Shown in pieces: positions 33,014 to 63,026 of a stretch of 64,000 nt of DNA; position 1 is the first letter of the stretch, and each line of letters opens with the position of its first letter. The notes under the pieces were generated by a model. It searched no databases. It was not told the DNA's origin and was given only the letters and a program-made list of their open reading frames with translations. This stretch comes from Flavobacteriaceae bacterium. GTDB taxonomy: Bacteria > Bacteroidota > Bacteroidia > Flavobacteriales > Flavobacteriaceae. The stretch covers positions 1 through 64,000 of the forward strand of contig JAFMCL010000003.1 in assembly GCA_017857815.1 (NCBI GenBank), given 5' to 3'. The position numbers were made by a program, and so were the translations under genes.

Positions 33014-34144
33014 TTATAGACCGCCATAAAGTTTGTATACTTCCGAACCAGCACTTAGAAAAGCACCCGTTCCATAAACCTCAGTTTTGTCAGGCCATGC
33101 TTGACCAGGTTCTGCTCCTATCGGCTGAACATAACCTAACATTCCGTCTTCGGTTACGTGACTGACCATTGCATTCCATCCTTTTTCAACGGCTAATCCA
33201 TAAGTTGCTTTATCAAGAATGCCATTGTTAATTCCCCATGCCAATCCAAAAATAAAAAAGGAAGATCCACTGGTTTCTGGTGTAGGATAATATTCCTGAC
33301 CTAAAAGGCTCATTGACCAATGGCCTGCTGAAGTTTGTAGTTTTAAAAGTTTTTTAGCCATTTGCTTATATATTTTCAAAAAGCGGTTGTATTCGGATGT
33401 ACCAGGTTTTAATTCATTAAGTACATTTGCCAATCCAGCAAAAACCCATCCGTTTCCACGTGCCCAGAAAATTTTAGTTCCCTTATCTAGTTTCCCTAGG
33501 TAAGATCCATCGCGATAGTACAAGCTTTCTTTTTTATCATAGAGATGTCCCGTAGTCGCATTAAATTCTTGAAGCAGAAAATCAAGATAAGCTTGGTTAC
33601 GTGTCAACTTATAGAGCTTTGCCCAAACTGGAGGGGACATAAACAAAGCGTCACACCAATTCCATCGGTCCTGATGAAAAGGAGTTTTCCAATCCATAAT
33701 GGATTTTGAAGGATGATAAAGTATAAAATCAAATTGATCGATCGTCGGCTGAATCATTTTTTTATCTTTAAATTCTCTATAAAGATCAATATACATTTGC
33801 CCAACGGTATGGTCATCTGCATGATATGTTCGAGCATGCAACTTCCAGTCGTGTTCTTCTGCAATATCCTTAAGCCAGTTAAAATATTTATCATCTTCTG
33901 CCATTGCGGCCCATTTAACCATTCCTACATACAATGCGCCATTCGTCCAGTCTAGCGGATGATGTCTTGTGGTTTTAAGTCTTTTATTTTGGGCTCTAAA
34001 CTTAACATCACCGTGATTTTCGATTTGCCAATCTGCAACCTTTTGCATTATGGATTTAACATTTAATGGGGTGATGTCTTGTGCCAAAGAAAAATTAAAG
34101 AATAAAATCGAAGTGATTAAAAATTGAATTGTTATCGTTTTCAT
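33014..34144 (-). CDS. GH105 unsaturated glucuronyl/rhamnogalacturonyl hydrolase, secreted
   Basis: This 376-residue (alpha/alpha)6-barrel enzyme of the GH88/GH105 group has a Sec signal peptide (residues 1-21). It removes the 4,5-unsaturated uronic acid that a polysaccharide lyase leaves at the non-reducing end. The two catalytic-region Asp residues are in HADDHTVGQMYIDLY (about 110-111) and RWNWCDALFMSPP (Asp165). The ARGNGWVFAGL segment carries the conserved Arg229. It follows the PL24/25-like lyase gene by 12 bp, so lyase and hydrolase are produced together. The freed unsaturated uronate would feed KduI. Length is normal for GH105. Confidence 0.9.
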   Translation of the reverse strand: MKTITIQFLITSILFFNFSLAQDITPLNVKSIMQKVADWQIENHGDVKFRAQNKRLKTTRHHPLDWTNGALYVGMVKWAAMAEDDKYFNWLKDIAEEHDWKLHARTYHADDHTVGQMYIDLYREFKDKKMIQPTIDQFDFILYHPSKSIMDWKTPFHQDRWNWCDALFMSPPVWAKLYKLTRNQAYLDFLLQEFNATTGHLYDKKESLYYRDGSYLGKLDKGTKIFWARGNGWVFAGLANVLNELKPGTSEYNRFLKIYKQMAKKLLKLQTSAGHWSMSLLGQEYYPTPETSGSSFFIFGLAWGINNGILDKATYGLAVEKGWNAMVSHVTEDGMLGYVQPIGAEPGQAWPDKTEVYGTGAFLSAGSEVYKLYGGL

Positions 34145-34156
34145 GATTTAATAATA

Positions 34157-35593
34157 TCATTTAGTTTTTAGTTTATATAAATACAATTGGCTAGGGGATG
34201 GCCATGGTTTAGGGCGAGGTTTGTCTCGATTGTTGTTCAATGTTTCCCATTTTAAAAAATAGTGAATGTTTTTTTCTTTCACTTCACCAATATCTGGAAC
34301 GCTATTGATTACGAGTCCAGGAAAAGAGCCTTCAATTTCCAATTGTTTCTTAAATCGGCTGTTGGTGAAGAGTTTAGGGGTTTTTAAAACTTTACCAATG
34401 GGCGCAAATGCTTCATCCAACAAAAGCGTACCACTTCCATATTTCTTATGCCAGTAACCTATTTCAAACCTTCCATCTTCTCTTCTGTCAAAACTGTTGA
34501 TCCTAAGCTCAACATTGATACTACCATTTCCTGAAAATTCCCATCGATAATCCCATTGGGTAATAGGCTTAGATATCCATTCATCCCCCTCAATTTTTGC
34601 AATGTAAAGTTGAATGTTTCCACTTTCATCATATTTGTGATAAGTGAATACTGGTTTGTTATTTTTATCTAAACATAATTTTGCTGCCAAATTAATAATC
34701 CCCCCTTTTGGTGGAACCGGTGCAACAATAAGTGATTTTTTATCTAATGTCGCCGGCAATACAATCGGCTGGTCAAACGCATCAAACCAGTTTTTTAAAT
34801 CAGGACTTTTCATATAAGACAAGTCATGATTGGTCGAGCAGTCGGGCGTGTCTCTCCAGACCCAATAAACGTGATACCAACCATCCTCTCTGACTTCGGG
34901 TTGCGACTGATAGGCATTCATTAATCCCTGGCCGTCTGTCAAAGGAACGTCTAACATTCTAGACCATTTCTTTTTTTGAGTGTCATAAGTGTTATAGATC
35001 TCATTTCCATTACCACTTGATCCATCTCGATAATGAAAAATCAATTCCTGTTCTTTTGACAGCATGAATTTAGGATATGTTGATCTTAATTCATTTGAGC
35101 CTACCAATGGAAAGTGTTGAACAAGTGTGGAGATATCCCCTGACAATTCACTTCTAAAATAGGTTAAAGAATCCACATGCATATTCCCAGAGAGGTGGAT
35201 AAACCCTTCTTTATCGACAGCCATTGTTATCGAGTTATGGGAATCCCACCCTACCTCGGTTGCAGAAAATCTCTTTTTTTTATCTTTTTGACCTAAGGTT
35301 CTCGTGGGCGCAGACATTTGATGTAAAACAAAGTTTTTATCGGTTAACTTTCTTTGTCCTACTACCATATTTCTATTGGCATTATAGTAGGCAATGTATT
35401 GACTTTCATCGTGGGTATAAAGAGAAAAACTTACAGGATGACCTGACCATACTGAGTCGATTTTTATGATTTCAATGACGGATTCAGTTTGATCTCTTTC
35501 ATCAACAACAACTTCTCCTGACTTCTTTTTAGAACAGGAGAACATTAGCACTGTAAGAAGAAATACCGTCAAATACTCAATTGATTTTAACAT
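34157..35593 (-). CDS. BNR-4 beta-propeller lipoprotein, PL24/PL25 ulvan-lyase-like
   Basis: This 478-residue lipoprotein (lipobox Cys20, LMFSC) is a predicted seven-bladed propeller of the BNR-4 type. Two histidines 20 residues apart, His119 in WDSHNSI and His139 in SGNMHVD, and Tyr188 in FHYRDGSSGNG fall at almost the positions reported for the catalytic residues of PL25 ulvan lyases. Those enzymes cleave between rhamnose-3-sulfate and glucuronate or iduronate by beta-elimination. Being next to GH105 strongly suits a lyase. PL24 has the same fold and a similar His pair, so the exact family is open, and other BNR-4 proteins are hydrolases. The 213-bp gap upstream suggests its own promoter. 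Confidence 0.75.
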   Translation of the reverse strand: MLKSIEYLTVFLLTVLMFSCSKKKSGEVVVDERDQTESVIEIIKIDSVWSGHPVSFSLYTHDESQYIAYYNANRNMVVGQRKLTDKNFVLHQMSAPTRTLGQKDKKKRFSATEVGWDSHNSITMAVDKEGFIHLSGNMHVDSLTYFRSELSGDISTLVQHFPLVGSNELRSTYPKFMLSKEQELIFHYRDGSSGNGNEIYNTYDTQKKKWSRMLDVPLTDGQGLMNAYQSQPEVREDGWYHVYWVWRDTPDCSTNHDLSYMKSPDLKNWFDAFDQPIVLPATLDKKSLIVAPVPPKGGIINLAAKLCLDKNNKPVFTYHKYDESGNIQLYIAKIEGDEWISKPITQWDYRWEFSGNGSINVELRINSFDRREDGRFEIGYWHKKYGSGTLLLDEAFAPIGKVLKTPKLFTNSRFKKQLEIEGSFPGLVINSVPDIGEVKEKNIHYFLKWETLNNNRDKPRPKPWPSPSQLYLYKLKTK

Positions 35594-41840: not shown

Positions 41841-44447
41841 TTATCTGATTAATGCATTCAAAATACTCTTAGGATAGACATCTCCCATAGTATTTATATG
41901 TTTTTCTCCACCTATGGATTCAATCAATCTTGACAATCCTTCTTTTTGGTTCGACTCTAAACCATCACTCATCTCTAAATGAGAAATAAATTCAAGCGAT
42001 CCATCATTCTTTTCAACTTTAATCCTAGCTGGAGCATTGGAATCCATATTTGCTGTTATTTTCCAGTCTAAAATCTCATAAACTCCTTTTTCTGAGGGGA
42101 CAACTTCACTGTACTCTAAATTGTCACTTACTTGAATGACTGCTAGAAATTTCATTTTCTCTTGTTTTTCTTTTGTTGTTGCTTTAAAATGCCAGTGATT
42201 TTTATAGGTAACCAATTCTCCTTTTGCATTTAGTTTCTTGATGAAGTTGAAGGGCTCTACTGTAAATTTATCGGTAACATCATAGCTTATATGAGAACCT
42301 CCAAAAAGGGTCACCCTTCCCCCACGATCTTCGTAAGTTGTTTCCACGGTTTTATTTTCAGTATCTAACTTTAGCCCGTGATAGTTGTGAATCAACCAAC
42401 TCCAATCAACTGGTTTTTCAGCTTCCAGTACATCATAGACAACCAAAATATCCGGCTTTAACAAAATGAAATGCCTTCTAAACTTTTTAACGCTCATGTC
42501 GTCGGGAGTATTGTCTTTTCTAACTCTTTGACTTAGTTCATGAGACTCATAGGCATGAGAAGCGTCTCCAACAACATAAGACAGTTGATCTCCTTCAATA
42601 AAACGAGGCAAAAACCCATAAGCACCTGAATCATACGGTTGTCCTTGACCATCCACCAAAATAGTATTGTGACCCTGTGTGTGTTTGTGCCAAGCTTGTT
42701 GATGGGGAGATCCCATCCATGGGCGATAACCGCTGTTGTAAAACAAACGTTTTCCTTTATAAGCAATGTTAAAATTGTTCTGCTCTGCATGGGTATGCGC
42801 CAATGGCCCCATTGGAGAACTCTTCACAGAAACCATTAAATTCTTATCAATATTATTCCTGTCCGAATTAAGGTAAGCAACGCCCACGTCCCTAAAAATA
42901 GCAGCATCTCTAAGGGCAGTATTTCCATCTGTTTCCGGTAATTCCATGTCATATCCTCGAGTCATTCTAAACCATGCATAATCCTTGTCATCGCTGAGTT
43001 TGGATTTCACAAGTGCATCACCCGTATAATCTAGATCAATATAAGGTTCCTCCAGATTCCCTAGGATATCAAAGACCTGATCTGAATATGTTCGAGCACG
43101 TGGATCTTTCAAAATCCTTGCTATAGCATCCGAAAATGCGCCATATTCAATATTGGGCATTGGCCATTTTTTTCCATCATTGCAAAAACCGTCGCTAGTA
43201 GAGCCCGGGGGGTAACTATAACTCATCCAAGTCATAAAGTTTTCATACCAAGGAGAAACAAAAAAATCCAATCCTGTGAAATCACCTAAACGCATCGGAA
43301 CATCTAGCAAAGTCATTACATTCATTCTCATGTAACCAGTTCCATTAAACCATGCGCCATCTTCAACACCCATTTTGGGGTGTTGTGCAATCCAAAGCTC
43401 GTAGAGGTAGGTAAACCACTTTGAAGCTTCTGGAACCTCATTAACCAAAGCAATTGAAGAGATAAACAAGCGATGAAAGATGTGCTGCCAAACATGCATT
43501 GAAGAATTTCTATTTTCAACATAATTCGTCCAATTATCGTAAAACCCATCACCTCGTGCCACAATTTGATTTACAACGGATTGACGCTCACTCTCCTCAA
43601 ATTTTTCCCAAAAAACGTCAATCGCCAACGCCAATGATTGCATTATAAAGGCATCACCAAAATCATTGATATGGGTCAATCCTTTAGGATCCCATTGCGC
43701 AGCTTGCAGCATCCATTTACGGGCATTATTAAAATATTTTTCTTCTTGGGTTAAAACAAACGCCTTGGTTAAGGTTTCGAGTGATTCTCCAAATTGAACT
43801 CCTATCTTTTGACTAAACTGTTTTGCTATTTTTTCTGTTTCGCTGCGGTCTCTTCCTTCAAAAGTTGCTATAGCATCATCTTCTTTAGGAATACGCAGCG
43901 TTAATACTAAATCCGCAGCTGCTATAATTTTCTCTCGCTCTTTATAATTTTTTGATTTATTAATAAATTGAGGTAAATTTTCTTTTTTTATTAATACCCG
44001 AGGATGTACCTTACCTATTCCCGCTAGCACTTCGTTCACAGCAGGAGGTACAAATGAAATGGTTTCATCATTAACAACAAAAGAAGCCACTTCACTCCAA
44101 CTTGACAACTTGGACTTGTATTGCCAGTACCAAATTCCTTTTTTTAAATTTTGATGAGGATTTATTAATGAAAATGGAATGTCATTTATTTCAATTAATT
44201 CGTTTTTAAATTCTGGATCTGTAGCAATCCTGACATCGTAAAATGAAGATTTATCAGAAGGCCATTCTAAACTTGGACTGGAAAACCTGGCACTAATATT
44301 ATTATCAGGAGACATCCAGCGTCTGTATTTTGGATAAATAAAATCTGGCATAACTTCTTTTCCTAATGACTTCGGTTGTTCTTGACTAATACAAGATTGT
44401 ATTAGAATCGAAAACAAAAGGACTATTGTGTAAAACTTGTGATTCAT
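41841..44447 (-). CDS. DUF4962/heparinase II-III family protein, probable polysaccharide lyase, lipoprotein
   Basis: This 868-residue lipoprotein (IQSC, Cys19) has an N-terminal fibronectin-like segment (about 30-135), an (alpha/alpha)-toroid DUF4962 region (about 150-520, with NWTNYVENRNSSMHVWQHIFHR) and a heparinase-II/III beta-sandwich (about 530-760). HTHAEQNNFNIAYKGKRLFYNSGY with its His cluster and HKHTQGHNTILVDGQGQ are the conserved active-site and metal segments. Heparinase-type lyases cleave uronate linkages by beta-elimination. A family with this architecture, PL40, includes ulvan lyases of Formosa, but membership here is not established. It is inside the sulfatase operon, so an endo- or exo-lyase role on a sulfated uronate polymer is likely. 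Confidence 0.8.
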   Translation of the reverse strand: MNHKFYTIVLLFSILIQSCISQEQPKSLGKEVMPDFIYPKYRRWMSPDNNISARFSSPSLEWPSDKSSFYDVRIATDPEFKNELIEINDIPFSLINPHQNLKKGIWYWQYKSKLSSWSEVASFVVNDETISFVPPAVNEVLAGIGKVHPRVLIKKENLPQFINKSKNYKEREKIIAAADLVLTLRIPKEDDAIATFEGRDRSETEKIAKQFSQKIGVQFGESLETLTKAFVLTQEEKYFNNARKWMLQAAQWDPKGLTHINDFGDAFIMQSLALAIDVFWEKFEESERQSVVNQIVARGDGFYDNWTNYVENRNSSMHVWQHIFHRLFISSIALVNEVPEASKWFTYLYELWIAQHPKMGVEDGAWFNGTGYMRMNVMTLLDVPMRLGDFTGLDFFVSPWYENFMTWMSYSYPPGSTSDGFCNDGKKWPMPNIEYGAFSDAIARILKDPRARTYSDQVFDILGNLEEPYIDLDYTGDALVKSKLSDDKDYAWFRMTRGYDMELPETDGNTALRDAAIFRDVGVAYLNSDRNNIDKNLMVSVKSSPMGPLAHTHAEQNNFNIAYKGKRLFYNSGYRPWMGSPHQQAWHKHTQGHNTILVDGQGQPYDSGAYGFLPRFIEGDQLSYVVGDASHAYESHELSQRVRKDNTPDDMSVKKFRRHFILLKPDILVVYDVLEAEKPVDWSWLIHNYHGLKLDTENKTVETTYEDRGGRVTLFGGSHISYDVTDKFTVEPFNFIKKLNAKGELVTYKNHWHFKATTKEKQEKMKFLAVIQVSDNLEYSEVVPSEKGVYEILDWKITANMDSNAPARIKVEKNDGSLEFISHLEMSDGLESNQKEGLSRLIESIGGEKHINTMGDVYPKSILNALIR

Positions 44448-45800: not shown

Positions 45801-47630
45801 TTAAGATTTTAATTCCCATATTTTTAAGTTTCGATATCTAAATCGGGTCCACTGCATCTGTCTAAAAGCAAATTTCCCGGAGCCTAAAACTGGTCCCAAT
45901 GACTTGCCATCGTCTTTCCAATCAATAATTTTTTCACCATCAAGATGCATCACGATGTGATTCTTATTTTTTATCAATTGAATTTTATGAACTTCTTTGG
46001 AGTTTGATGGAATTCCTGGCCGACCAACATGTACCTTAACAAAGCCTTTGTTTTTTCTCAAATGACTAAAAGGTCGGTTGGGTTTATTGGGCGCGTTGGC
46101 ATAATAGGAGATGTGATAGTTGTTCAAATCACTCTTGGTGTATTGTTTAAAAACACCTGCTCTCTTTTTTAAACTGGGATCAAAAACATCTTTTCCATTC
46201 AAGCCTTTGGCACTAAAAAAAACAATACACAACCCTGCGTCTGTCTCAATGTTTTGAACTTCCCATTCTGCTACAAAATTTGCTGGAAGATCCCTTGGAC
46301 ACCAAAACACATGATGGGAGGCCTCCTTTGGAGAGAACATTTCCATCCATCCTGATTTAAAGAGAACAGCGCCCTCCCCCTCCATGCTCCAATCTTGAGT
46401 TTTTGATGCGACAGATAAATTATTTTCATAAAAAATATTTCCCTTCTGAAAAGATATTTCATCATCAGAACTCGTCTTTAAGTAATTAATATATTCTGAG
46501 GCAGCGAGTAAAAAAGCTCCGGTACCAAATTCTTCCCAGGAGTCGGCGTCAAAAGGCTTTGGATCTTTACCTACGGGCTGGACATATCCCAATCGCCCCG
46601 CTTCATTAACATGCTGCTTTAGCCCATTCCATGCACTTAGCATGGGTGATAAATATTGATCCTTAGATAGAATACCTTGATTAACTCCCCAAGCAAATCC
46701 GTAACAGAAAAAACTACTGCTACTGTTTTCAGGAACATCAACTGGATTGATCGACTGGACAAGCGCGCCACTTTTGTTGTCTAAAAAAGCAAAAACACCT
46801 GGATCCAATAGATTCGACCGCCACAATCCGTCTGCCTTTTGAATTTCTAGTAAGGCTTTTGACATTCCAATAAATTGGTCTAAAAGTAGTTTTCGTTTCG
46901 GGTGATCTTTTGGAATAATTTCAAGCATATGAACCAAACCGCCATAAACCCAACCATTACCTCTACCCCAAAAAATCTTTTTCCCTGCTTTTGTTGTTTT
47001 TCCAAAATAGCGATCATCACGATAAACCAAGTTTTCTTCTTTATCCCATAAATAATCCGTGGTGATTAACCAATGATCAATCGCATAATCAAGGTAAGCT
47101 TTGTCACCCGTCATTTGATACATTTTCGCAAAAGTTGGAGGCGCCATAAACAAAGCATCACACCAGGACCACCATTCGTGTTGGTAAGGGTTTTTATCAT
47201 ATCGAACATCAGGTACAGGCTTTTTTCGCAACAAGTGTGCATCAAGCACCCATTTAAGGTTTTTAATCATTGCTCCTCGTCCTTTTTGGTCATATAAATC
47301 AAGATAAACCTGACCAATAGCAATTTTATCCCCATGAAACATGTCCGGAATTGTTTCCCATCGATGCTGCTCTCCTATTTCGTATAGATAACTTTGATAT
47401 TCGGAATTATTTGTGGTCTTAAAAGCTTTCATCAAACCGATATAATAAGCCGAAAAATGCCAGTTCGTCAAGGTGTATTTCTCAACATGATCCGTTTGTG
47501 CGTTTTGCCATTTGACAACCCTATTTATTAATTCTGTTACCTGATTTATTTCCTTTTCTTGGTTTTGCGCAATTGCGTTAATCGCTAGAAAAAGAATTAA
47601 GAAAAAAATACTAAATTTTTTATTTTTCAT
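45801..47630 (-). CDS. GH105 - DUF1961 fusion protein, secreted
   Basis: This 609-residue two-part protein has a Sec signal (to about residue 22, INAIAQ). The first part (about 25-385) is a GH105 barrel with GDKIAIGQVYLDLY, WWSWCDALFMAPP and WGRGNGWVYGG, and so should remove unsaturated uronate from lyase products. The second (about 395-609) matches DUF1961, a jelly-roll domain: HHVFWCPRDLPANFVAEWEVQ, CIVFFSAKG, HISYYANAPN and IQLIKNKNHIVMHLDGEKIIDW. DUF1961 proteins normally occur alone, and none that I know has a settled activity. The domain could bind the glycan or supply a second cut. No frameshift is needed to join the halves, so the fusion looks genuine. Confidence 0.87.
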   Translation of the reverse strand: MKNKKFSIFFLILFLAINAIAQNQEKEINQVTELINRVVKWQNAQTDHVEKYTLTNWHFSAYYIGLMKAFKTTNNSEYQSYLYEIGEQHRWETIPDMFHGDKIAIGQVYLDLYDQKGRGAMIKNLKWVLDAHLLRKKPVPDVRYDKNPYQHEWWSWCDALFMAPPTFAKMYQMTGDKAYLDYAIDHWLITTDYLWDKEENLVYRDDRYFGKTTKAGKKIFWGRGNGWVYGGLVHMLEIIPKDHPKRKLLLDQFIGMSKALLEIQKADGLWRSNLLDPGVFAFLDNKSGALVQSINPVDVPENSSSSFFCYGFAWGVNQGILSKDQYLSPMLSAWNGLKQHVNEAGRLGYVQPVGKDPKPFDADSWEEFGTGAFLLAASEYINYLKTSSDDEISFQKGNIFYENNLSVASKTQDWSMEGEGAVLFKSGWMEMFSPKEASHHVFWCPRDLPANFVAEWEVQNIETDAGLCIVFFSAKGLNGKDVFDPSLKKRAGVFKQYTKSDLNNYHISYYANAPNKPNRPFSHLRKNKGFVKVHVGRPGIPSNSKEVHKIQLIKNKNHIVMHLDGEKIIDWKDDGKSLGPVLGSGKFAFRQMQWTRFRYRNLKIWELKS

Positions 47631-49058: not shown

Positions 49059-50348
49059 TTAAATATTAAATGGTTTTCTATATTTTTTAGATCTTAATTT
49101 ATTTGCTTCTCTATCGTGGATAAATTTCTCCTTCACTGGATTCCATTCTAAAGGCCTATTTAAATCATAAGCAATATTACTCAATTGGCATACAGAAGAG
49201 GTTCTGTGTCCAACCTCAACATCACAGATCGGTTGTTTTCTTGTTTTAATGGAATTGATCCAGTCTATATAATGATCGTCACTTTTATAAAGCTTGATGT
49301 CATTTTCCCCAATGACAACATCAGCAATGTTTTTTGGGTCTGTTTCCAAAAGACCTCTTCTTACTTTGAGCTTCCCTTTAGAGCCAATAAACTTAACCCC
49401 AAACTTGGTCATTTCAAATTTATCATGTACCATTTCGATTCCATTCTCATAGAACATCCTCAAGCCCAATTTAGCTTCCTTATCTTTTGGAGGAATAAAC
49501 TTGACAGGCCCCGTATGATCCATTCCAAGTGCCCATTGAGCAATGTCAAACATGTGAGCACCCCAATCTGCAATGATTCCTCCTCCGTATTCTTGATAAG
49601 ACCTCCATCGTGGAAAATGTCTTTGTTCTACCGGTGGGGAAAGAATACTATTATAAGGTCTGTAAGGTGCGGAACCTAACCATCCGTTCCAATTCAAAGC
49701 ATCAGGAGCTTTTTCAGAGGGAAGGTCGCAAGGAATTGCAGGGTCTCCCACATAAACAATTACTTTTTTAATTTCCCCTATGTACCCATTACGAACTAAT
49801 TCAGCTGCATGTCTAAAAAGTTTTGAGGAACGCTGCATGCTTCCTGTTTGGAAAACAGCATCATACTTTTTCACTGCATCAGCAATCATTCTTCCTTCTT
49901 TTAAAGTATGTGCTAAAGGTTTTTCACAATAAACATCCATTCCTGCTGCCAACGAATCAATCGAATTCTTTGCATGCCAGTGATCTGGTGTGGCAATAAC
50001 AACCGCATCCAATCCTTTGTGATTAAGAAGTTCTTGATAATCGGCATATTTATTTACCCCTTTGATATCCCAGTTGGGTTGATTTTTTTTATAAGCTTTA
50101 ATAAGTTCTTGCTCCAAAAGGTTCAATTTATCTCCCTCAACATCAGATGCGGCTACCCACCTGACCTGATCTTTAAGGCTGAATCTTTTCATGAGTCCCC
50201 TACCTTGAACACCTGTTCCAATTAATCCTAGATTAATTTGATCACTTGGTGCTACAAACCCTCGACCCAATACATGACGCGGAAGAATAAAAACTCCTGC
50301 GCCCATTGTTAAACTTTGCTTTAAAAAGGTTCTTCTTTTATTGTTCAT
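49059..50348 (-). CDS. Tat-exported Gfo/Idh/MocA-family oxidoreductase
   Basis: This 429-residue oxidoreductase has a clear twin-arginine signal (NKRRTFLKQS). The Rossmann motif GLIGTGVQGRG is at 41-51 and the active-site EKPLAHT at 142-148. The domain downstream holds WGAHMFDIAQWALGMDHTGP, typical of the secreted Gfo/Idh proteins found in Bacteroidota and Planctomycetes sugar loci. It lies between two sulfatase genes in one transcript, so its substrate is probably a desulfated oligosaccharide in the periplasm, oxidised at a ring hydroxyl. No DUF1080 gene adjoins it directly, but three such genes are under the same apparent control. Confidence 0.87.
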   Translation of the reverse strand: MNNKRRTFLKQSLTMGAGVFILPRHVLGRGFVAPSDQINLGLIGTGVQGRGLMKRFSLKDQVRWVAASDVEGDKLNLLEQELIKAYKKNQPNWDIKGVNKYADYQELLNHKGLDAVVIATPDHWHAKNSIDSLAAGMDVYCEKPLAHTLKEGRMIADAVKKYDAVFQTGSMQRSSKLFRHAAELVRNGYIGEIKKVIVYVGDPAIPCDLPSEKAPDALNWNGWLGSAPYRPYNSILSPPVEQRHFPRWRSYQEYGGGIIADWGAHMFDIAQWALGMDHTGPVKFIPPKDKEAKLGLRMFYENGIEMVHDKFEMTKFGVKFIGSKGKLKVRRGLLETDPKNIADVVIGENDIKLYKSDDHYIDWINSIKTRKQPICDVEVGHRTSSVCQLSNIAYDLNRPLEWNPVKEKFIHDREANKLRSKKYRKPFNI

Positions 50349-53406: not shown

Positions 53407-54426
53407 TTAAATAATATTTTCAATATTTCCTTTTGATCGATAGAGCGCATTGATGAAGGCAACTGATTTTCTTGCTTCATTGACACCGACTAGTGGTTCT
53501 TTTTCGTATTTTACAGCCGCTATCATATTAGTTATTGAATCAATATGAAATTGTTCTCCAATTCCCATTGGATCAGAAGCACCTGAGCCATTCGAATCCA
53601 CTTTTATATCCAACAAATCTTTGATTTCAGGAAGACTGGAAGAAACGATTTGACCTCCTTTAAACTGAACATTTCCCAAAGTCCCGAAAACACCAATGGA
53701 TTCTGGTTCGCCAGGATAAAGTGCTGTTCCACCCGAAAGTGTCCCTAGGGCACCATTCTTAAATCTAAAGGAAGCGACCCCAACATCTTCTCCTTCAATA
53801 TTATGATGTAATGTGTCAATGAAGCCACTGATTTCTGCTACATCACCAATTAGGTTTATCATAAGATCAATGGTGTGTATGCCTTGATTTATAAAAGTTG
53901 CACCTCCATCTATTTCTTTTGTACCTCGCCAAGAGTCTTCATAGTATTCTAAAGATCTGTACCAATTTACACTGGTTTGAACCAAAAGTATTTTACCTAA
54001 TAAGCCCTCGGCTAAAATCTTTTTTAATTGAATAAATTCTGGATTCATTCTGTTTTGAAAAACACAGCCTAGCTTTACATTGTGTTCCTTAATTATTTTT
54101 GAAATCGTGTCAATTCTGTCTGTAGTGATTTCAAGTGGTTTTTCACACAGTATATTTAAACCATATTTTGCAATTTTAGATATGGTCTCAAGATGTAACC
54201 CGCTTTCATTACAAATACAAACAATCTCTAAATCAGGGGTTTTTAAAAGCTGATCAATATCCCAAAACACTGGCGATGAGAAATTTTCTTGAACGGATTC
54301 AGCTCTAGACTTTGTCTTGCTTACTACTCCTAACAGCTTTGCATTAGGAATTGCTTCAATGCAACGTGCGTGTAGCCTTGCAATATTGCCTGTCCCAATG
54401 ATCCCAAAACCTATTTTATTTTCCAA
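53407..54426 (-). CDS. Cytoplasmic Gfo/Idh/MocA-family oxidoreductase
   Basis: This 339-residue oxidoreductase has no signal peptide. The frame begins directly with the Rossmann fold (GFGIIGTGNIARLHARCI, 6-23), and LCEKPLEI is at 93-100. It is the only one of the five Gfo/Idh proteins here that should stay in the cytoplasm. This suggests a later step on an imported sugar, for example re-reducing a keto-sugar made outside. It sits between the GH92 gene and a sulfatase gene. The exact substrate is not deducible. Confidence 0.85.
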   Translation of the reverse strand: MENKIGFGIIGTGNIARLHARCIEAIPNAKLLGVVSKTKSRAESVQENFSSPVFWDIDQLLKTPDLEIVCICNESGLHLETISKIAKYGLNILCEKPLEITTDRIDTISKIIKEHNVKLGCVFQNRMNPEFIQLKKILAEGLLGKILLVQTSVNWYRSLEYYEDSWRGTKEIDGGATFINQGIHTIDLMINLIGDVAEISGFIDTLHHNIEGEDVGVASFRFKNGALGTLSGGTALYPGEPESIGVFGTLGNVQFKGGQIVSSSLPEIKDLLDIKVDSNGSGASDPMGIGEQFHIDSITNMIAAVKYEKEPLVGVNEARKSVAFINALYRSKGNIENII

Positions 54427-54445: not shown

Positions 54446-56818
54446 TTAATCTGACATGCTACTAGGAAGAGTTTCTGGATTCACCGCCCAATCTAAATTT
54501 GGGCTTTCATCTAAAACATATTCTAGTTTTCCTCCATTAATTAGAACATCGTGATAAAACCAAGATTGGTTTAAAGGCACTCCATTAAGTTTCACACTTT
54601 GAATGTACTTATTTTTTAAATTGTTATTCTGAGTTGTAATCGTAAAACTCTTTCCTGAGTAATAATCTGAATCTAAATGAATCTTAATTTCATCAAAAAT
54701 CGGACTTGATATATCATAAGCTGGCTTTTGATTTGTCCCTCCTTTCATTTCAAACAAACCAATTTTCATCAATACTGAAAGAGCTCCCATTAACCCTTGA
54801 TCCTCGTCACCGCTGTAACCTTTTTGTGGCGTGTTGTCGCTGTATACAACCTCTAATACATCACGCACCCATTTCTGAGTAAGCCAAGGTTGACCCATAT
54901 AATTAAAAATATAAGCCGTTTGCATAGAAGGCTGATTTCCATAGTTGAGGTAGGCTCTTCTTCTTTGATCGGCTACAAACTTATCGCCACGATAATTGTG
55001 TGTCACAAACTGGTGTTGTTCTGCAATTAGGAAAGATTGATTTAATCTTTTTGCTGCGATTGACTTGCCTCCCATTAGTCTGGCCAAACCGGCCAAATCA
55101 TGCGGGACAAACCAAGTTCCTGAAGCGGCAGTAGCTTCTACAAAACCAGATCCTGGACCACCAAAAGCATCACTTTCATAAACCAAAGGATCAAAAGGTT
55201 CTATCCATGAACCATCGAGCGTTCTTCCTCGCATCCACCCCGTTTTTTTATCGTATATGTTTTTATAATTTTCTGCTCGTTTCATCAACATTGCGTAATC
55301 ATCCTTTTTATTTAATGATTTAGCAAGTTGCGCTAAAGTCCAGTCTTGATAAGCATATTCCATTGTAGTTCCTGGGCCACACTGATGAAGACCGTATTTT
55401 TTATCTGACAGAGGAAAGGGAACATAACCTCGATCTATATAATATTCAATTCCTCCTCCAATGTTAGTGTAGTGCTCATAGCCAACTTTACTCATCATTC
55501 CACCGGGCATAGCATTTTTAAGCATTCCTTCATAAGCTTTATTAATGTCAAAACCACGGATTCCTTTCATATAGGCACTAACAATGAAAGGCGTAGAAGA
55601 AGCGCCTGTCATTACATAGGTATAATTCCCTCCTGAGGGGCCTCTGGGTATTAGACCACCATCATCATACATCAACAACATCGAGTTTACAAACTCCTCA
55701 GAAATTTTAGGGTAAACCAAATGCCAAAGTGTATTCAGTGTCCATTGTGCTCCCCAAAAAGAATCTGAATTATAGTGATTGAATTTAGGCTTCCCGTCAG
55801 TCCCAATTGGTATTTGACGTATTTTTTGCTTTTCTCCAGTCATGTCACTATATTTCCCATTGACGTCACTGATGATTCTTCTTCCTTGAAGAGCATGCCA
55901 TAAATCTGTGTAAAAACGTACTTGCTGATCTTTTGTATTTCCTTTGATTTCGATCCTACTTAAGTGATCGTTCCACTGCTTTTTAGAATCAGAAACAACT
56001 GCATCAAAATCCCAATGCTCCAATTCTGTAGTCAGGTTTAATTCGGCTTGATTCATACTTACATAGGAAATACCAACTTTCATCAATAGCTGCTCTCCTT
56101 CCTTACTTTTAAAAACAGGATAAACCCCTCCATTAGTTCCTTCGAACTTATTGACTTTGCCAGTCAACTCACCATCTTTCCAAGCATTAAGCGTTTCGAA
56201 TGATTTGTTAAAATGAATGGCAAAAAACACTTTTGTATCCTTGGGTCTTCTGCTCGTTTTTTCCATCACGGCATAGCCTTTGATTTTAGAATTCGAAACT
56301 TTCTTAGCATAGCCACTTTTGGTGCCCCCTGGGCCTAGTTGAGCTGAAAGATCAATAATGATTGAATTTTGATCCGATGCGGGGAAGGTATAACGATGAA
56401 AACCAACTCTTGTCGTGGAAGTTAATTCTACTTTAATTCCATAATCTTCCAAAACAACAGAATGGTATCCGGGGGTGGCTGTTTCATTATCATGAGAATA
56501 GGCTGAACCATAATTTTTAGGTCCTAAATGTGCTTTGATTTTTCCTGTAGTCGGCATCACAGGAATTCCTGAAAGTTGCCATGCGTGTATATGACTGAAA
56601 AAATTAATGGTCTTTTCGTTGTAACGATAACCTGATTCCCATGCACCAGCTGTTCCCATGTCTGGACTTAGGTTAACCATCCCAAATGGTCGGGAGGCTG
56701 AGGTAAAGAAGAACCACCTTGAATTAGCAGAATCAACAAATGGATTGACCAAATCAACGGGTTGTTGTGAATAAATAACTGTTGTTAGTAATATTAAGAA
56801 GAGTCTTAGTTTTTTCAT
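54446..56818 (-). CDS. GH92-family exo-alpha-mannosidase-like protein, secreted
   Basis: This 790-residue protein has a Sec signal (to about residue 18, VIYSQQP) and the GH92 architecture: an N-terminal beta-sandwich (DLVNPFVDSANSRWFFFTSASRPFGMVNLSPD to about residue 270) and a C-terminal (alpha/alpha)6 barrel (SFWGAQWTLNTLWHLVYP; YDDGGLIPRGPSGGNYTYVMTG; SGDEDQGLMGALSVLMKIGLFEM). GH92 enzymes are calcium-dependent inverting alpha-mannosidases. The late SGDEDQG segment departs from the common GNDD-GQ version, so a different specificity is possible. In a sulfated-glycan operon it may act on side chains or on a non-mannose sugar. Confidence 0.86.
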   Translation of the reverse strand: MKKLRLFLILLTTVIYSQQPVDLVNPFVDSANSRWFFFTSASRPFGMVNLSPDMGTAGAWESGYRYNEKTINFFSHIHAWQLSGIPVMPTTGKIKAHLGPKNYGSAYSHDNETATPGYHSVVLEDYGIKVELTSTTRVGFHRYTFPASDQNSIIIDLSAQLGPGGTKSGYAKKVSNSKIKGYAVMEKTSRRPKDTKVFFAIHFNKSFETLNAWKDGELTGKVNKFEGTNGGVYPVFKSKEGEQLLMKVGISYVSMNQAELNLTTELEHWDFDAVVSDSKKQWNDHLSRIEIKGNTKDQQVRFYTDLWHALQGRRIISDVNGKYSDMTGEKQKIRQIPIGTDGKPKFNHYNSDSFWGAQWTLNTLWHLVYPKISEEFVNSMLLMYDDGGLIPRGPSGGNYTYVMTGASSTPFIVSAYMKGIRGFDINKAYEGMLKNAMPGGMMSKVGYEHYTNIGGGIEYYIDRGYVPFPLSDKKYGLHQCGPGTTMEYAYQDWTLAQLAKSLNKKDDYAMLMKRAENYKNIYDKKTGWMRGRTLDGSWIEPFDPLVYESDAFGGPGSGFVEATAASGTWFVPHDLAGLARLMGGKSIAAKRLNQSFLIAEQHQFVTHNYRGDKFVADQRRRAYLNYGNQPSMQTAYIFNYMGQPWLTQKWVRDVLEVVYSDNTPQKGYSGDEDQGLMGALSVLMKIGLFEMKGGTNQKPAYDISSPIFDEIKIHLDSDYYSGKSFTITTQNNNLKNKYIQSVKLNGVPLNQSWFYHDVLINGGKLEYVLDESPNLDWAVNPETLPSSMSD

Positions 56819-56824
56819 TATTAA

Positions 56825-58042
56825 TTAAATATTTAAGTGTGAATCAGCTAGTGATAATAATTTTTTTTCATTAACCTTTAATCCAAATCCAGGTTTAAAG
56901 TTTACTTCAACCTTTCCTTCAGAATTTAGATAGGTTGCTTTATCGATGACGCAATTAAGAAAAGAATCGTTTTCTTGTGGTTTTTCCATGGCTTCCACCC
57001 ATGAAGCCTCATTCCCCACAGCAAGTTGTTGCCAAAAGGTGCAGGCGGCACCAACCAGACTAGAATCCCCAATCATAATTCCTTTTTTTGAAGCCCTAAC
57101 TATGGAAGACAATTTGTTGATTTCAAGAAAAGTCCCCATGGTATTGGGATGAAAATTAAAATAATCACCCATTTTACTGTCAAAGAATTCGATGCTCTTC
57201 TTTGCTGGACGCATAATGTGATCAGGTATAATTGAAAGTTCTCCTACTTTACTTTGTATATAAATAAATTCCTCTTTAGATAAAGAAGAAGGATCTTCGA
57301 TAGCATTCATCCCAGCCTTGTTCAACTCAATCAAAACATTGGCAAGTTGGTCTAAATCTTTAATGTATTTGTACCCTCGGTTAGGATCTCCCACGATGAA
57401 TGAATCAGGACCTAAAAAAGCTCTCAAGGCACTTATGTTTTTCTTATCAGTTTCAAAATCTCCAAACATCTTTACTTTTACATAACGGTGCATGTTTTGA
57501 ACTTTGGCTATTTTTGCTTGAATGACCACCGCTTCGGCATTTTTTTCTAGTATGCAGAAAATAGCAGGAATGGGTTGATCGCCCTGAAGTCCCCACATTT
57601 TAATCGTAGGTTTATTTGCGATTTTCCCCATTAAGTCATAAAGCGCCATAAGGACTCCCTCACTAATCACAGCAGACCATTTCTTGTCAAAAAAACAATT
57701 TCGTCCTTTTTCAATGGCAGCATTTAAATCCATGCCTTTAATCCCACTGAATTCAGCAGCCCAATTGTTTAAATCAAAGTCTGGATTATTACTTGAAACT
57801 TTTGTTTCTCCCCAACCCGTATGTCCACCAGCTTTTATGCTGAGCATTACATGTTGTCGGTTTTTCCATACGCCATAACTAAAATGTCTTTCTTTTTTGA
57901 CATTGATTAAATACAAATCAATTGCTTCAATTTTTACTTTTGATGCTTCTAAATTTGAGCAATTTGAAAAAAATGAAGGGACTAATAGTAAGGGTAAAAT
58001 ACCACTAGACTTTTTAAGAAAGTGCCTTCTAGAATTATTCAT
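56825..58042 (-). CDS. Enolase-superfamily (mandelate racemase-like) protein with Tat lipoprotein signal
   Basis: This 405-residue protein of the mandelate racemase/muconate lactonising group has a KxK pair at Lys189/Lys191, metal ligands Asp219, Glu249 and Asp274, and His298 in a position suiting the MR-subgroup His. All point to abstraction of a proton next to a carboxylate, as in acid-sugar dehydratases and epimerases. Unusually for the family it begins with a twin-arginine signal (NSRRHFLKK) and a lipobox ending at Cys28 (FFSNC), so it should work outside the cytoplasm. Next to sulfatases, a uronate epimerase or dehydratase acting on the oligosaccharide is an attractive idea. It is the second gene of the sulfatase operon. 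Confidence 0.83.
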   Translation of the reverse strand: MNNSRRHFLKKSSGILPLLLVPSFFSNCSNLEASKVKIEAIDLYLINVKKERHFSYGVWKNRQHVMLSIKAGGHTGWGETKVSSNNPDFDLNNWAAEFSGIKGMDLNAAIEKGRNCFFDKKWSAVISEGVLMALYDLMGKIANKPTIKMWGLQGDQPIPAIFCILEKNAEAVVIQAKIAKVQNMHRYVKVKMFGDFETDKKNISALRAFLGPDSFIVGDPNRGYKYIKDLDQLANVLIELNKAGMNAIEDPSSLSKEEFIYIQSKVGELSIIPDHIMRPAKKSIEFFDSKMGDYFNFHPNTMGTFLEINKLSSIVRASKKGIMIGDSSLVGAACTFWQQLAVGNEASWVEAMEKPQENDSFLNCVIDKATYLNSEGKVEVNFKPGFGLKVNEKKLLSLADSHLNI

Positions 58043-58047
58043 AAAGT

Positions 58048-59463
58048 CTATTTCTTTGAGTTTTGAATGATTTCAGCATTGGCATCATATAAAAAACTTA
58101 TTAATTCTTTGTCTAATTCTTGAACCATCTCGGGGAGCTTATTAGACAGGTCATTCTTTTCTTCAATATCTTTTGAAAGGTCAAACAACTCATACATTTT
58201 CTCGTCCCAGTGTTTTACTAGTTTGAAATTTCCAGAGCGAATAGCAGACTTAGGTTTTCTATTGGCAGCTTGATGGAATATCAAATAAGGACTGTTTCTT
58301 TTTACTTTACCCTTGCCATTATTGTGGAGAATTTCTTTAATACTTCCCCCATCAATTTTTTCTGGTAGTACGCCATTAAATCCAGAAAGATCTGCAAGCG
58401 TTGGCAATATGTCGAGGCCTGTGATCGGTACGTCAGAAAACGAACCTTTATTAACTCCTGGGCCGACCACAACAAAAGGAACCCTAATTCCTCCCTCGTA
58501 CATGGAGCCTTTGCCCCCTCTCAAAGGAAAGTTCCTTGGGGTGATTTGTTTCTTTCCAATAGGAATTGAAGACCGACCTCCATTGTCTGAGAGGAAAATG
58601 ATATAAGTATTATCTAAAATCCCGAGTGCATCTACCTTGTCTAAAATCATTCCTATTCCCTCATCCATGTCCTCAGTCATGGCAGCAAATTCAGGGACAA
58701 AATGTTTCTCTCCCTTTTTTAAATTATTGTATTTATCTATTGATTTTTTGGAGTGGGTTATGGCAAGATGAACGGCATAATGAGAAATCTGTATGAAAAA
58801 AGGCTTGTTGTTTTTAGTTTGTTCCTCAATAAAATCATTGGACCTAGTGGTCAAATCAAAAATCAATTTTGGGTCATCATAAATCGCGGGCCATTCTTTA
58901 CCCATTGCAAAAGGAATCTCTTGATTCCCAATTTCAATAATACTCTTTCCTCCACCAGTATTGTTACCTGTCAATCCATCGCTAAAATCGTACCCCATTT
59001 CTTCGGGTGTATATTGATCATATCGGGCATCCCATTTTCCGAAATGTGCGGTAACATAATTTTCATCCGCCAATTTTAAAATCTTAGGGATGGTCATTTC
59101 TTTCCGAAAGACTTTTGTCCAATTGTCACGATCCTTTTGATATTCGTGTTTGGCTGGCGTTAGTCCTGTTAAGATACTTTTTCTAGTAGGTGAGCAATAA
59201 GGTGCCGGAGCATAACCATTCGTCAATCGCATTCCCATGCTGGCCAATCTTTCCATGTTTGGTGTTTCATAGAAATCACTTTTTGAACGATTATCTTTGG
59301 GGTCAGCTAAAAAAGAAGTTCCCACCCAACTCTGATCATCAGTTAGTATAACAATAAAATTTGGTCGTTTTTGTTTTTGAGTAAATCCTTTGAAAAAACA
59401 AACGAAGGCGATTAGAAAAAATATTTTTTTCCAAATGTGGATCTTGATGAAATTTGGTATCAT
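58048..59463 (-). CDS. S1-family sulfatase, first gene of the sulfatase operon, secreted
   Basis: This sulfatase of about 470 residues has a Sec signal (IWKKIFFLIAFVCFFKGFTQ). I choose the ATG at 59461-59463; 59485-59487 is also possible. The in-frame ATG at 59547 is not used, because the promoter -7 element and operator lie at 59534-59560. The formylglycine motif is YCSPTR (Cys90 from this start). Metal ligands lie in VILTDDQSWVG and FLSDNGGRSS. The long loop FLADPKDNRSKSDFYETPNMERL after the first metal site recalls marine S1 enzymes with arylsulfatase ancestry. It leads some fifteen genes spaced by 20 bp or less. Confidence 0.88.
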   Translation of the reverse strand: MIPNFIKIHIWKKIFFLIAFVCFFKGFTQKQKRPNFIVILTDDQSWVGTSFLADPKDNRSKSDFYETPNMERLASMGMRLTNGYAPAPYCSPTRKSILTGLTPAKHEYQKDRDNWTKVFRKEMTIPKILKLADENYVTAHFGKWDARYDQYTPEEMGYDFSDGLTGNNTGGGKSIIEIGNQEIPFAMGKEWPAIYDDPKLIFDLTTRSNDFIEEQTKNNKPFFIQISHYAVHLAITHSKKSIDKYNNLKKGEKHFVPEFAAMTEDMDEGIGMILDKVDALGILDNTYIIFLSDNGGRSSIPIGKKQITPRNFPLRGGKGSMYEGGIRVPFVVVGPGVNKGSFSDVPITGLDILPTLADLSGFNGVLPEKIDGGSIKEILHNNGKGKVKRNSPYLIFHQAANRKPKSAIRSGNFKLVKHWDEKMYELFDLSKDIEEKNDLSNKLPEMVQELDKELISFLYDANAEIIQNSKK

Positions 59464-59533
59464 TAAATAAAATTTAAATTTTGACATATGGCATAACAAA
59501 TGGTTTAATTGTAAAACGAAACATATTAAATTC

Positions 59534-59560
59534 GTGCACGCGCACAATTGTTCAAAAATA
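59534..59560 (-). promoter_or_regulatory. Sulfatase-operon promoter -7 element with LacI-type operator
   Basis: On the minus strand TATTTTTG (59560-59553) is a perfect TAnnTTTG -7 element. Seven bases later the palindrome GTGCGCGTGCAC (59545-59534) covers the expected transcription start. The -33 region is only T-rich, with no TTG at 19-20. The same palindrome pattern stands at three other promoters here. Confidence 0.65.
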
Positions 59561-61186: not shown

Positions 61187-61552
61187 CTATTTTTTTAGTC
61201 TTTTAATTTCGAGGTATAAAACTAAGGGGGTGATCCAATTTCCAGCACGCTCAAAAAACTCTAAAAATGATTCCCCATAAATTGGTCTCATTGCGGCAGT
61301 CAAGAACCCCCAAAAAGTACACCACAACAGAACAATGGGGATTGGAAAAAAAACAACTGTCAAACCCAAAGAAATATCAAGTACCCCAATCATTTTCATT
61401 ATAAAATAGGCTTCGGTCTCATTTTGAGTAATAAAAGAAAGGTATTCAACCCATTCTTCTTTCCCCAAATAAGCAATTATTCCATGAGAAATAAAAATTG
61501 AAGCTACCGCAAAACGAATCAGATACTGAATTATGCTATTTTTTTTATTCAT
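61187..61552 (-). CDS. Small DoxX-like membrane protein
   Basis: This 121-residue protein has four hydrophobic segments. YLIRFAVASIFISHGIIAYLGKEEW and MKMIGVLDISLGLTVVFFPIPIVLLWCTFWGFLTAAMRPIYGE recall the DoxX superfamily, with a Gly-x-x-Asp in the second helix. It is placed as the first gene before a sulfatase gene and divergent from the double-DUF1080 gene. A link to sulfur or redox handling is sometimes suggested for DoxX proteins but is not demonstrated by this sequence. It is only distantly similar to the DoxX protein at 2767-3189. Confidence 0.7.
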   Translation of the reverse strand: MNKKNSIIQYLIRFAVASIFISHGIIAYLGKEEWVEYLSFITQNETEAYFIMKMIGVLDISLGLTVVFFPIPIVLLWCTFWGFLTAAMRPIYGESFLEFFERAGNWITPLVLYLEIKRLKK

Positions 61553-61566
61553 TTCACTTATATGTG

Positions 61567-61610
61567 TTGTTAGATTAACAAAAATGATTAATTTTATCGT
61601 GTGCGTGCAC
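61567..61610 (+). promoter_or_regulatory. Promoter with LacI-type operator for the double-DUF1080 gene
   Basis: TTG at 61567-61569, a 19-bp spacer and TAATTTTA at 61589-61596 (one mismatch to TAnnTTTG) form a Bacteroidota promoter. The palindrome GTGTGCGTGCAC at 61599-61610 follows after two bases, on the expected start of transcription. The start codon of the gene is therefore the ATG at 61644, not an in-frame ATG at 61533 further upstream. Confidence 0.65.
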
Positions 61611-61643
61611 TATAAAAATCATTCAAAACTAAATAAAAACCAA

Positions 61644-63026
61644 ATGGTATTCAAAAATATTTTTCTTAAAACGCTTTTAACAACAACCTTAAGTGTTTTC
61701 TTTTGTATTTCATCAATTGCTCAAACAAATTGGATCTCCCTCTTTAATGGAAAAAACTTAAAAGGATGGGAAATTAAACAAGGTTCCGCAAATTTTGAGG
61801 TAATTAATAATACGATTGTTGCTACTACCTTATTGAAATCAAAAAGCACCTATTTAGCAACTAAAAAACAATATGGAGATTTCATTTTTGAGGCAGAGAT
61901 GTATGCTACTCCAGGATTAAACTCTGGCATACAATTTAGAAGTCATGATGGAGAAAAAGGTGTTTATGGTTATCAGTGTGAATTTGACACCGATCCAGTT
62001 CGCGCCTGGTCAGGAGGGATTTATGACCAATCTAGAAGAGGTTGGATTTATCCATTAACAGAAAACAGAAAAGGAAGTGCTGCTTTTAAAAATGGGCATT
62101 GGAATAAGATCAGAATAGAAGCTGTAGGCAACAAAATACAAACATTTATTAACGGTGTTCAGTGTGCCAACCTTATTGATGATATGGATGTTGACGGTTT
62201 TATTGCACTCCAATTACACTCCATTAGTTCAGCGGATCAAGTCGGGAAAAAAGTGAAGTGGAGAAACATTAGAATCGCTACTGAAGATGTTAAAAAACAT
62301 CAAACACCAACACAGGTGAATGCCAACGAGATCAGTTATTTAAAAAACACCCTTACCGAAGATCAAGTTAGAAAAGGATGGAGATTACTTTGGGATGGAA
62401 AAACCAGTAATGGTTGGAAAAGTGCTAAAAAAGCTGGTTTTCCAGAAAATGGTTGGGTCATGGAAGACGGAATCTTGACCGTACTTGAATCAGGAGGTGG
62501 CGAAGCTAGAAATGGGGGCGACATTGTTACCGTAGACAAATTTAGCAACTTTGAGCTGGAAGTTGATTTTATGTTTACACCTGGTGCGAATAGTGGAATT
62601 AAATATTTTGTTGACACTTCGCTCAATCAAGGAGTGGGCTCATCAATAGGTTGTGAGTTTCAAATTTTGGATGACAACCTTCATCCTGATGCAAAAAAGG
62701 GAATAAAATCAAATCGAACTTTGGGTTCATTATACGACCTTATTAGATCCGAAAGCCTTCAAGAACCACGTGATCAAAGAAGAGGCGTGAAACCAAATGG
62801 ATGGAACAGGGCAAAAGTGGTTGTAAACGGAGGAAAAGTAGAACACTGGCTTAACAATATGAAAATTGTTGAGTATGATCGTTATTCTCAAATGTTTAAA
62901 TACTTAGTATATTATAGCAAATATTCCAAATATGAAAACTTTGGAAGGGCAACTGAAGGTCGTATTCTCCTTCAAGATCATGGGAATACCGTATCTTTTA
63001 AAAATATAAAAATTCGTGAATTTTAA
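61644..63026 (+). CDS. Double DUF1080 (3-keto-disaccharide hydrolase-like) protein, secreted
   Basis: This 460-residue protein has a Sec signal (VFKNIFLKTLLTTTLSVFFCISSIAQ). The first DUF1080 domain (about 28-215: NWISLFNGKNLKGWEIKQG, LNSGIQFRSHDG, WNKIRIEAVG, VKWRNIRIA) closely resembles the single-domain protein at 25387-26106. The second (about 240-460: GWRLLWDGKTSNGWKSA, NSGIKYFVDTS, CEFQILDDNLHPDA, VEHWLNNMKIVEYDR) belongs to the type with an EFQILDD-like acidic segment, as in 4553-5311. Two different DUF1080 types in one chain suggest either processing of two linkages or one binding and one catalytic module. A sulfatase gene overlaps its end by 11 bp. Confidence 0.85.
   Translation: MVFKNIFLKTLLTTTLSVFFCISSIAQTNWISLFNGKNLKGWEIKQGSANFEVINNTIVATTLLKSKSTYLATKKQYGDFIFEAEMYATPGLNSGIQFRSHDGEKGVYGYQCEFDTDPVRAWSGGIYDQSRRGWIYPLTENRKGSAAFKNGHWNKIRIEAVGNKIQTFINGVQCANLIDDMDVDGFIALQLHSISSADQVGKKVKWRNIRIATEDVKKHQTPTQVNANEISYLKNTLTEDQVRKGWRLLWDGKTSNGWKSAKKAGFPENGWVMEDGILTVLESGGGEARNGGDIVTVDKFSNFELEVDFMFTPGANSGIKYFVDTSLNQGVGSSIGCEFQILDDNLHPDAKKGIKSNRTLGSLYDLIRSESLQEPRDQRRGVKPNGWNRAKVVVNGGKVEHWLNNMKIVEYDRYSQMFKYLVYYSKYSKYENFGRATEGRILLQDHGNTVSFKNIKIREF

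Follow-up and report, generated by a model that had tools for sequence, protein, structure and literature searches.

That saturated uronate ends can be dehydrated while acidic polysaccharides are being degraded is a recent finding, described for two enzyme families that are unrelated to each other in sequence (PMC8511951, PMC12269599). P29_PDnc dehydrates GlcA/IdoA-Rha3S and is reported to be active without added cofactor (PMC8511951, as far as its accessible text goes), and BcGDH, formerly GH154, is described in the corresponding portion of PMC12269599 as dehydrating chondrosine. Both are PUL-encoded, and in both cases the loss of water from a terminal uronate enables cleavage by GH105/GH88 enzymes. 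Ulvan oligosaccharides are stated to hold both the GlcA and the IdoA epimer (PMC8511951, same portion). Enolase-superfamily enzymes work by abstracting the alpha-proton of a carboxylate (PMC5467563, PMC4922564), and the catalytic residues of mandelate racemase (MR) are given as K166, D270, H297 and E317 (PMC4922564, likewise). We found no link between this superfamily and oligosaccharide uronates in the accessible portions of PMC5698469, PMC8857213, PMC10444878, PMC8511951, PMC12269599, PMC2781113, PMC5467563 and PMC4922564, and the word "enolase" occurs 0 times in those of PMC8511951 and PMC12269599, which by their descriptions sets P29_PDnc and BcGDH apart from the protein reported here.

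The window analyzed is a stretch of 64,000 nucleotides (positions 1 to 64,000 of contig JAFMCL010000003.1, assembly GCA_017857815.1) from a marine Flavobacteriaceae bacterium that lives on sulfated sugar chains and has a 2.2-Mb draft genome in 55 contigs. On its minus strand, an open reading frame (56825..58042) runs from an ATG start at 58042 to 56825 and codes for a 405-aa enolase-superfamily protein with a Tat-type signal, His298 on strand 6 and Asp326 on strand 7. A first-pass annotation had assigned the protein to this superfamily, and the assignment holds: the protein matches PF13378 (MR_MLE_C) with 45.9 bits against a cut-off of 29.4, its metal and lysine sites are intact, and its structure model is confident (pLDDT 88). 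NCBIfam returned nothing except matches far under the cut-offs. The superfamily is ordinary; the catalytic residues and the predicted place of work are unusual. We tentatively propose, with somewhat less than even confidence, that the protein is a Tat-exported, divalent-metal-dependent enzyme of a new family resembling the muconate-lactonizing (MLE) subgroup, and that it dehydrates the uronate ends of sulfated oligosaccharides in the periplasm.

An earlier model based on alignment A1 was poor (pLDDT 61.6; best match mandelate racemase, Z 20.1) and was replaced by a model based on alignment A2 (pLDDT 88, pTM 0.85). The latter and its match to 2p88 both show a capping domain and a (beta/alpha)7beta barrel. 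VIA-align placed 2p88, an N-succinyl-Arg/Lys racemase, first (Z 38.1, rmsd 2.5, 354 residues), followed by 3q45 (Z 38.0) and by 4mgg, 4m0x and 3dgb (37.4-37.5); these five best rows are tied within 1 Z unit, and glucarate dehydratases score about 35. The fold is shared in the same way with the dipeptide epimerases 3q45 and 3jva (the latter at Z 35.2), the matches to 2p88, 3q45 and 3jva having an rmsd of 2.5-2.7 over 340-355 residues. Pseudomonas putida mandelate racemase is not among the best 50 VIA-align rows listed, which excludes nothing. In Foldseek the top three rows by E-value are mandelate racemase, with a query TM of 0.72-0.73, a ranking that argues against the proposed reading, and the query TM is 0.76 for 2p88 and 3dgb. 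The fold ranking of the model is thus ambiguous and by itself decides neither subgroup nor reaction, for which reason the subgroup was judged on residues.

Residues K189, K191, D219, N221, E249, D274, N296, H298, D326, S328 and E350 are invariant in 23/23 homologues. A1 and A2 together add R52, F54, S55, W59, N61, R62, Q63, D250, P273, P299, G325, E353 and K354, and the full invariant list is longer. The translated frame contains each element named in the first-pass annotation, namely SRRHFLKK (residues 4-11), Cys28, K189-V-K191 and H298, and the invariant K189 and K191 form a KxK of MLE type on strand 2. The three carboxylate ligands that had been announced are D219, E249 and D274, which align with D176, E202 and D225 of E. 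coli L-Ala-D/L-Glu epimerase (AEE); near them lie model strands 215-219, 247-249 and 270-272, which are strands 3, 4 and 5. H275, beside the third ligand, was considered as a catalytic residue and rejected, because other members have K, A or V there.

To fix the register of the remaining catalytic positions, the family was aligned with E. coli RhmD, DgoD, AEE and MenC and with L001, a PF13378 protein of the same genome. H298 (codon 57149..57151, minus strand) lies at the end of barrel strand 6, in the place of the MLE-subgroup Lys or MR Asp270, and aligns with D298 of RhmD, D258 of DgoD, K247 of AEE, K235 of MenC and K259 of L001. HMMER alignments of the A1 profile have Lys in this column in 3jva and 2p88 and Asp in 5olc. 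G325 aligns with the strand-7 His of DgoD (H285) and RhmD (H325), and D326 (codon 57065..57067, minus strand) comes next, just past barrel strand 7 and beside the MR-type His position. Strands 6 and 7 of the A2 model span residues 294-297 and 321-324, so that H298 and D326 sit just beyond the strand ends. The strand-7 His of mandelate racemase is absent, with G325-D326 in its place. The first-pass annotation had taken H298 as a sign of a mandelate-racemase-type active site; the enolase fold that this presupposed is borne out by the model, whereas the MR-type site is not, and the register against RhmD, DgoD and the outgroups rules H298 out as the MR-type His. The closeness of its number to MR His297 is a coincidence.

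The two positions separate the family from its nearest relatives. The strand-6 column is His in 17/17 A2 members (and in 23/23 family proteins, which thus lack the second catalytic Lys of the MLE subgroup), Lys in 20/20 best outgroups (L062-L081, from 20 genomes of the class) and Asp in L048, a cycloisomerase-like protein. The D326 column is Asp in 17/17 A2 members, Cys in 18/20 and Gly in 2/20 outgroups, and His in L048. The signature of the family reads N-x-H-P on strand 6 and M-I-G-D-x-S on strand 7. The residues mark the scaffold as MLE-like, a type that the best outgroup matches share; with these outgroups the window protein has in common the KxK on strand 2 and the D-x-N, E and D ligands, and it differs from the MLE subgroup in its strand-6 His in place of Lys, its strand-7 Asp, its Tat-type signal and its gene context. 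With the MR subgroup (mandelate racemase, DgoD, RhmD) it shares the fold, the strand-2 K, the metal site and an acidic residue near strand 8 (E350), but on strand 6 it carries a His where MR has Asp, and it lacks the strand-7 His of MR, having an Asp just past that strand. Judged from the alignments, the site looks like the mandelate-racemase dyad transposed: on an MLE-type scaffold, His would have taken the place of the second catalytic Lys, with an Asp newly arisen nearby. H298 and D326 would be in contact, with D326 orienting H298. One OSBS-annotated protein has been recorded with His in place of Lys at the other base, and was judged likely to have a new function (PMC2781113). In three related homologues (L034, L035, L036), 15 extra residues are inserted shortly behind the D219-x-N221 loop, possibly near the active site.

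These columns bear on two further readings. Loss of the usual second MLE-subgroup base might mean that the protein is a catalytically dead or lectin-like relative; we hold this to be highly improbable, as the metal ligands, both KxK lysines, His298 and Asp326 are invariant down to 36% identity. An exported amino-acid or peptide epimerase, present in the locus by chance or serving a nitrogen-bearing substituent, would agree with the best fold matches (N-succinyl-Arg/Lys racemase and dipeptide epimerase) and with L065, an MLE-type relative that has a Tat-type N-terminus and keeps the Lys/Lys site. We nevertheless consider such an epimerase very unlikely, given that 20/20 best outgroups have Lys on strand 6 and 0/20 have Asp at the D326 position (18 Cys, 2 Gly), and given that within the window's group the gene retains its sulfatase and GH92 neighbors.

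In all, 23 distinct homologues were collected (16 in A1 and 7 more in A2), from at least nine genera and with 36-98% identity to the query, L053 being at 36%. Among 60 related genomes, 17 (the window's own included) carry the protein at E <= 1e-10: its own, 15 of 21 others of the same genus, one of the 15 that belong to different genera within Flavobacteriaceae and none of the 23 that belong to other families. The same-genus carriers include one with a fragment only (G017), one in which the gene is split over two contigs (G008) and one in which it is truncated (G019). A profile search of 299 genomes of the family gave 11 matches at E <= 1e-6, own included, of which seven are members in further genera, here called tier 2 (G895, G898, G908, G915, G916, G929, G1023), and one (G1041) is the cycloisomerase-like L048. 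In samples of 395 genomes each, which are subsets of larger groups, the single-protein search of the class and the A1 profile search of the phylum, both at E <= 1e-15, returned the own genome alone, and the A2 profile at E <= 1e-8 returned from the class sample the own genome and 20 Lys-site proteins. Plasmids gave zero matches. Other phyla were covered solely by a scan with exact query peptide patterns, which finds close relatives; the scan returned proteins 98% and 96% identical in the uncultured Flavobacteriaceae FRAM18_bin214 and FRAM_WSC20. As no further member turned up in the class, phylum or plasmid samples, the His/Asp family appears to be rare and, as far as seen in these searches, confined to Flavobacteriaceae. 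One genome (G021) has, besides an intact copy on contig C94, a second, broken copy of the enolase-like gene on contig C6 (27507-27995; L022, L024, L037), which matches over residues 1-109 and 348-405, lacks the part in between and contains stops.

Acid-sugar dehydratases of the enolase superfamily are, as a rule, cytoplasmic. The SRRHFLKK codons (58010..58033, minus strand) of the window protein form a twin-arginine stretch, twin arginine is found in 22/22 homologue N-termini (the truncated L035 being left out), and TatC is encoded in 9/9 genomes, one per genus, from nine genera including the window's own. With its hydrophobic stretch, the motif makes the enolase-like protein a predicted Tat substrate. 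The lipobox Cys28 pointed out in the first-pass annotation is present in the window protein, where the lipobox reads FSNC, but it is not a family trait: a loose pattern devised for this analysis finds a lipobox-like Cys in 11/22 homologue N-termini, and a conserved lipoprotein anchor was accordingly downgraded. The contrast drawn there with normally cytoplasmic relatives likewise stands as a rule and has an exception in L065 (1348-2490, minus strand), another superfamily protein, of MLE type and with the Lys/Lys site kept, whose N-terminus is of Tat type (MASRRNFLKAAA...). Exported superfamily members may thus reach beyond the His/Asp family.

The gene lies in a minus-strand run at about 25-61 kb of the window, whose products have N-termini that mostly resemble signal peptides by eye. 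The sulfatase setting claimed for it is confirmed by nine PF00884 sulfatases with a C-x-P-x-R motif in the surroundings. Directly upstream is a sulfatase (58048..59547, minus strand) whose orthologue is directly upstream in 12/13 own-group loci, the 13th, L035, beginning inside the gene; the listed TTG start of this sulfatase gives an unusual N-terminus by eye, and the true start is probably further in. Directly downstream is a GH92 family glycosidase (54446..56818, minus strand), whose orthologue adjoins the gene in 12/13 own-group loci (not in L029), and then a Gfo/Idh/MocA oxidoreductase (53407..54426, minus strand) without evident signal peptide by eye. Further along on the same strand are a GH88-DUF1961 protein (45801..47630), whose best solved relative is the unsaturated 3S-rhamnoglycuronyl hydrolase 4ce7 (E 1e-54), a second GH88 protein (33014..34144) and a heparinase II/III-like lyase candidate (41841..44447; best solved relative 6lja, E 5e-108). 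For a BNR_4 protein (34157..35593, minus strand), the closest relative of solved structure is 5muk, which its depositors called "Neuraminidase"; a weaker one is the L-rhamnose-alpha-1,4-D-glucuronate lyase 7esl (E 1e-14). SusC/SusD-like genes occur in the run, and UxaC, UxuA, a TRAP transporter component and a PfkB kinase adjoin it. Nine sulfatases, two GH88 proteins, a heparinase-like protein, the BNR_4 relative of a Rha-GlcA lyase and nearby uronate catabolism genes fit the sulfatase/uronate polysaccharide locus that had been proposed. Lyase candidates already in the window would themselves yield unsaturated ends, which counts against the dehydratase reading.

Related loci repeat much of this setting. 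In G025 (L058), GH92 and Gfo/Idh genes follow likewise, with a GH88-DUF1961 gene and a heparinase-like gene within 10 kb. Tblastn matches to the window sulfatases occur in 6/7 tier 2 loci; the five that were scanned in part gave the alpha-L-rhamnosidases GH78 in three (L051, L052, L054) and GH106 in one (L052), GH43 in L051 and GH2 in L053. The 30 window genes scanned include neither GH78 nor GH106, so the window and tier 2 contexts are not alike in every detail. Breakdown of sulfated glycans appears to be common to the window group and most of tier 2, and both show signs of rhamnose and uronate. Of these two units the uronate is favored as substrate, since it would offer the carboxylate that the superfamily needs. 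The exception is L055 (G898), a divergent member. Xylose-isomerase-like genes, a kinase-aldolase fusion and GH20 lie near it, the six neighbors scanned include neither a rhamnosidase nor a uronyl hydrolase, tblastn gave no nearby match to the window sulfatases, and its genome yielded no match to PF07470.

In 17/19 genomes tested, of 24 with a member, the contig that bears the enolase-like gene also bears a GH88-family gene (PF07470); in G013 that gene sits on another contig. By genus, it lies 5-77 kb away in 8/9 genera. The proximity gives a Fisher p of ~2e-5 with all matches above cut-off and 2e-6 with the strong ones, figures that are indicative only, because the test assumes uniform placement and independent genomes while the genomes are related, because distances are same-contig only and because one G895 match below cut-off was dropped. 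In six genera outside the window's group and G025, the GH88 gene is 15-77 kb off and not adjacent; this distance and the missing PF07470 and sulfatase matches of L055/G898 weigh against the dehydratase reading.

The superfamily, the intact metal and lysine sites, the Tat-type N-terminus and the sulfatase/uronate locus together make a role on uronate ends before import plausible, and the enolase relative, predicted to be exported, probably processes acidic ends of sulfated sugar chains outside the cell. In the mechanism that we envisage, a sulfated oligosaccharide would be bound by the carboxylate of its non-reducing-end uronate, through a metal on D219, E249 and D274, and K191 of strand 2 and H298 of strand 6 would act from opposite faces as base and acid. 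Either K191 or H298 would take the C5 proton to give an enolate, the 4-hydroxyl would be expelled, and the resulting 4,5-unsaturated uronate would be cut off by GH88-type hydrolases (GH88/GH105), the same reaction as that of P29_PDnc and BcGDH.

Alternatively, reprotonation from the other face would give C5 epimerization. Two bases on opposite faces are a hallmark of N-succinyl amino acid racemases and dipeptide epimerases, the enzymes that form the best structural and sequence matches of the window protein. A periplasmic uronate C5 epimerase would use K191 and H298 to swap the C5 proton, turning GlcA ends into IdoA ends and back with no water lost, and one set of hydrolases or lyases could then handle both epimers, which do occur together in ulvan oligosaccharides (PMC8511951, in its accessible part). 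A degrader would seemingly gain less from this than from making a GH88 substrate, and literature searches for such an epimerase found none in the texts accessible to us; we regard the epimerase, with its shared hydrolase set, as rather unlikely. Dehydration was placed before epimerization because of the GH88 linkage and the P29_PDnc and BcGDH precedents, and the evidence does not separate the two outcomes.

A small-molecule substrate is the other reading to be weighed against dehydration of oligosaccharide ends. To our knowledge, the known carbohydrate-acid members of the superfamily (e.g. DauB) act on free sugar acids or lactones, which argues against an oligosaccharide substrate. A marine flavobacterial sulfated-polysaccharide pathway includes another enolase-superfamily enzyme, with detectable sequence similarity to the window protein, and that enzyme acts on a free sugar acid, unlike the oligosaccharide proposed here. 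The protein could be a periplasmic dehydratase or cycloisomerase for a free small acid or lactone, such as an oxidized or anhydro sugar acid, before import; the better sequence matches include anhydrogalactonate cycloisomerase 5olc and galactarolactone cycloisomerase 4ggb, and the window contains UxaC, UxuA and the TRAP transporter component. However, the window protein has neither the Asp (strand 6) and His (strand 7) pattern of L048 nor that of AtGCI and DauB, which have a catalytic His296 in common according to the accessible source text, and we judge the free-acid reading improbable to a similar degree as the epimerase.

It is possible, at a level of confidence that we place below even, that the protein represents an undescribed enolase-superfamily family with a transposed acid/base pair, the first to act extracytoplasmically on uronate ends of sulfated oligosaccharides, and either a third independent origin of oligosaccharide dehydration or, within this fold, the first uronate C5 epimerase to serve degradation. 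If true, the well-studied machinery for abstracting the alpha-proton of carboxylates would be joined to polysaccharide degradation, and the superfamily would gain a new catalytic residue pattern. It would also suggest a route by which ocean flavobacteria clear saturated GlcA and IdoA ends from sulfated glycans, and would be a reason not to label such proteins "mandelate racemase" or "dipeptide epimerase" in annotation.

Several other genes of the window were recorded. The GH88-DUF1961 protein (45801-47630) is a fusion whose second half matches yesU (1oq1), and two PhoD-like phosphatases (31425-32906 and 38907-40397) lie within the sulfatase-rich run. One Gfo/Idh/MocA oxidoreductase (49059-50348), also within that run, has a twin-arginine start and scores 162 bits to the BT_2158_fam glycoside 3-dehydrogenase model, whose cut-off is 750; another (22695-23891) starts with MKRKEF. 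Two 3-keto-disaccharide-hydrolase proteins are encoded at 25387-26106, inside the run, and at 61533-63026, and a 3-keto-glycoside route may exist in or beside the polysaccharide locus.
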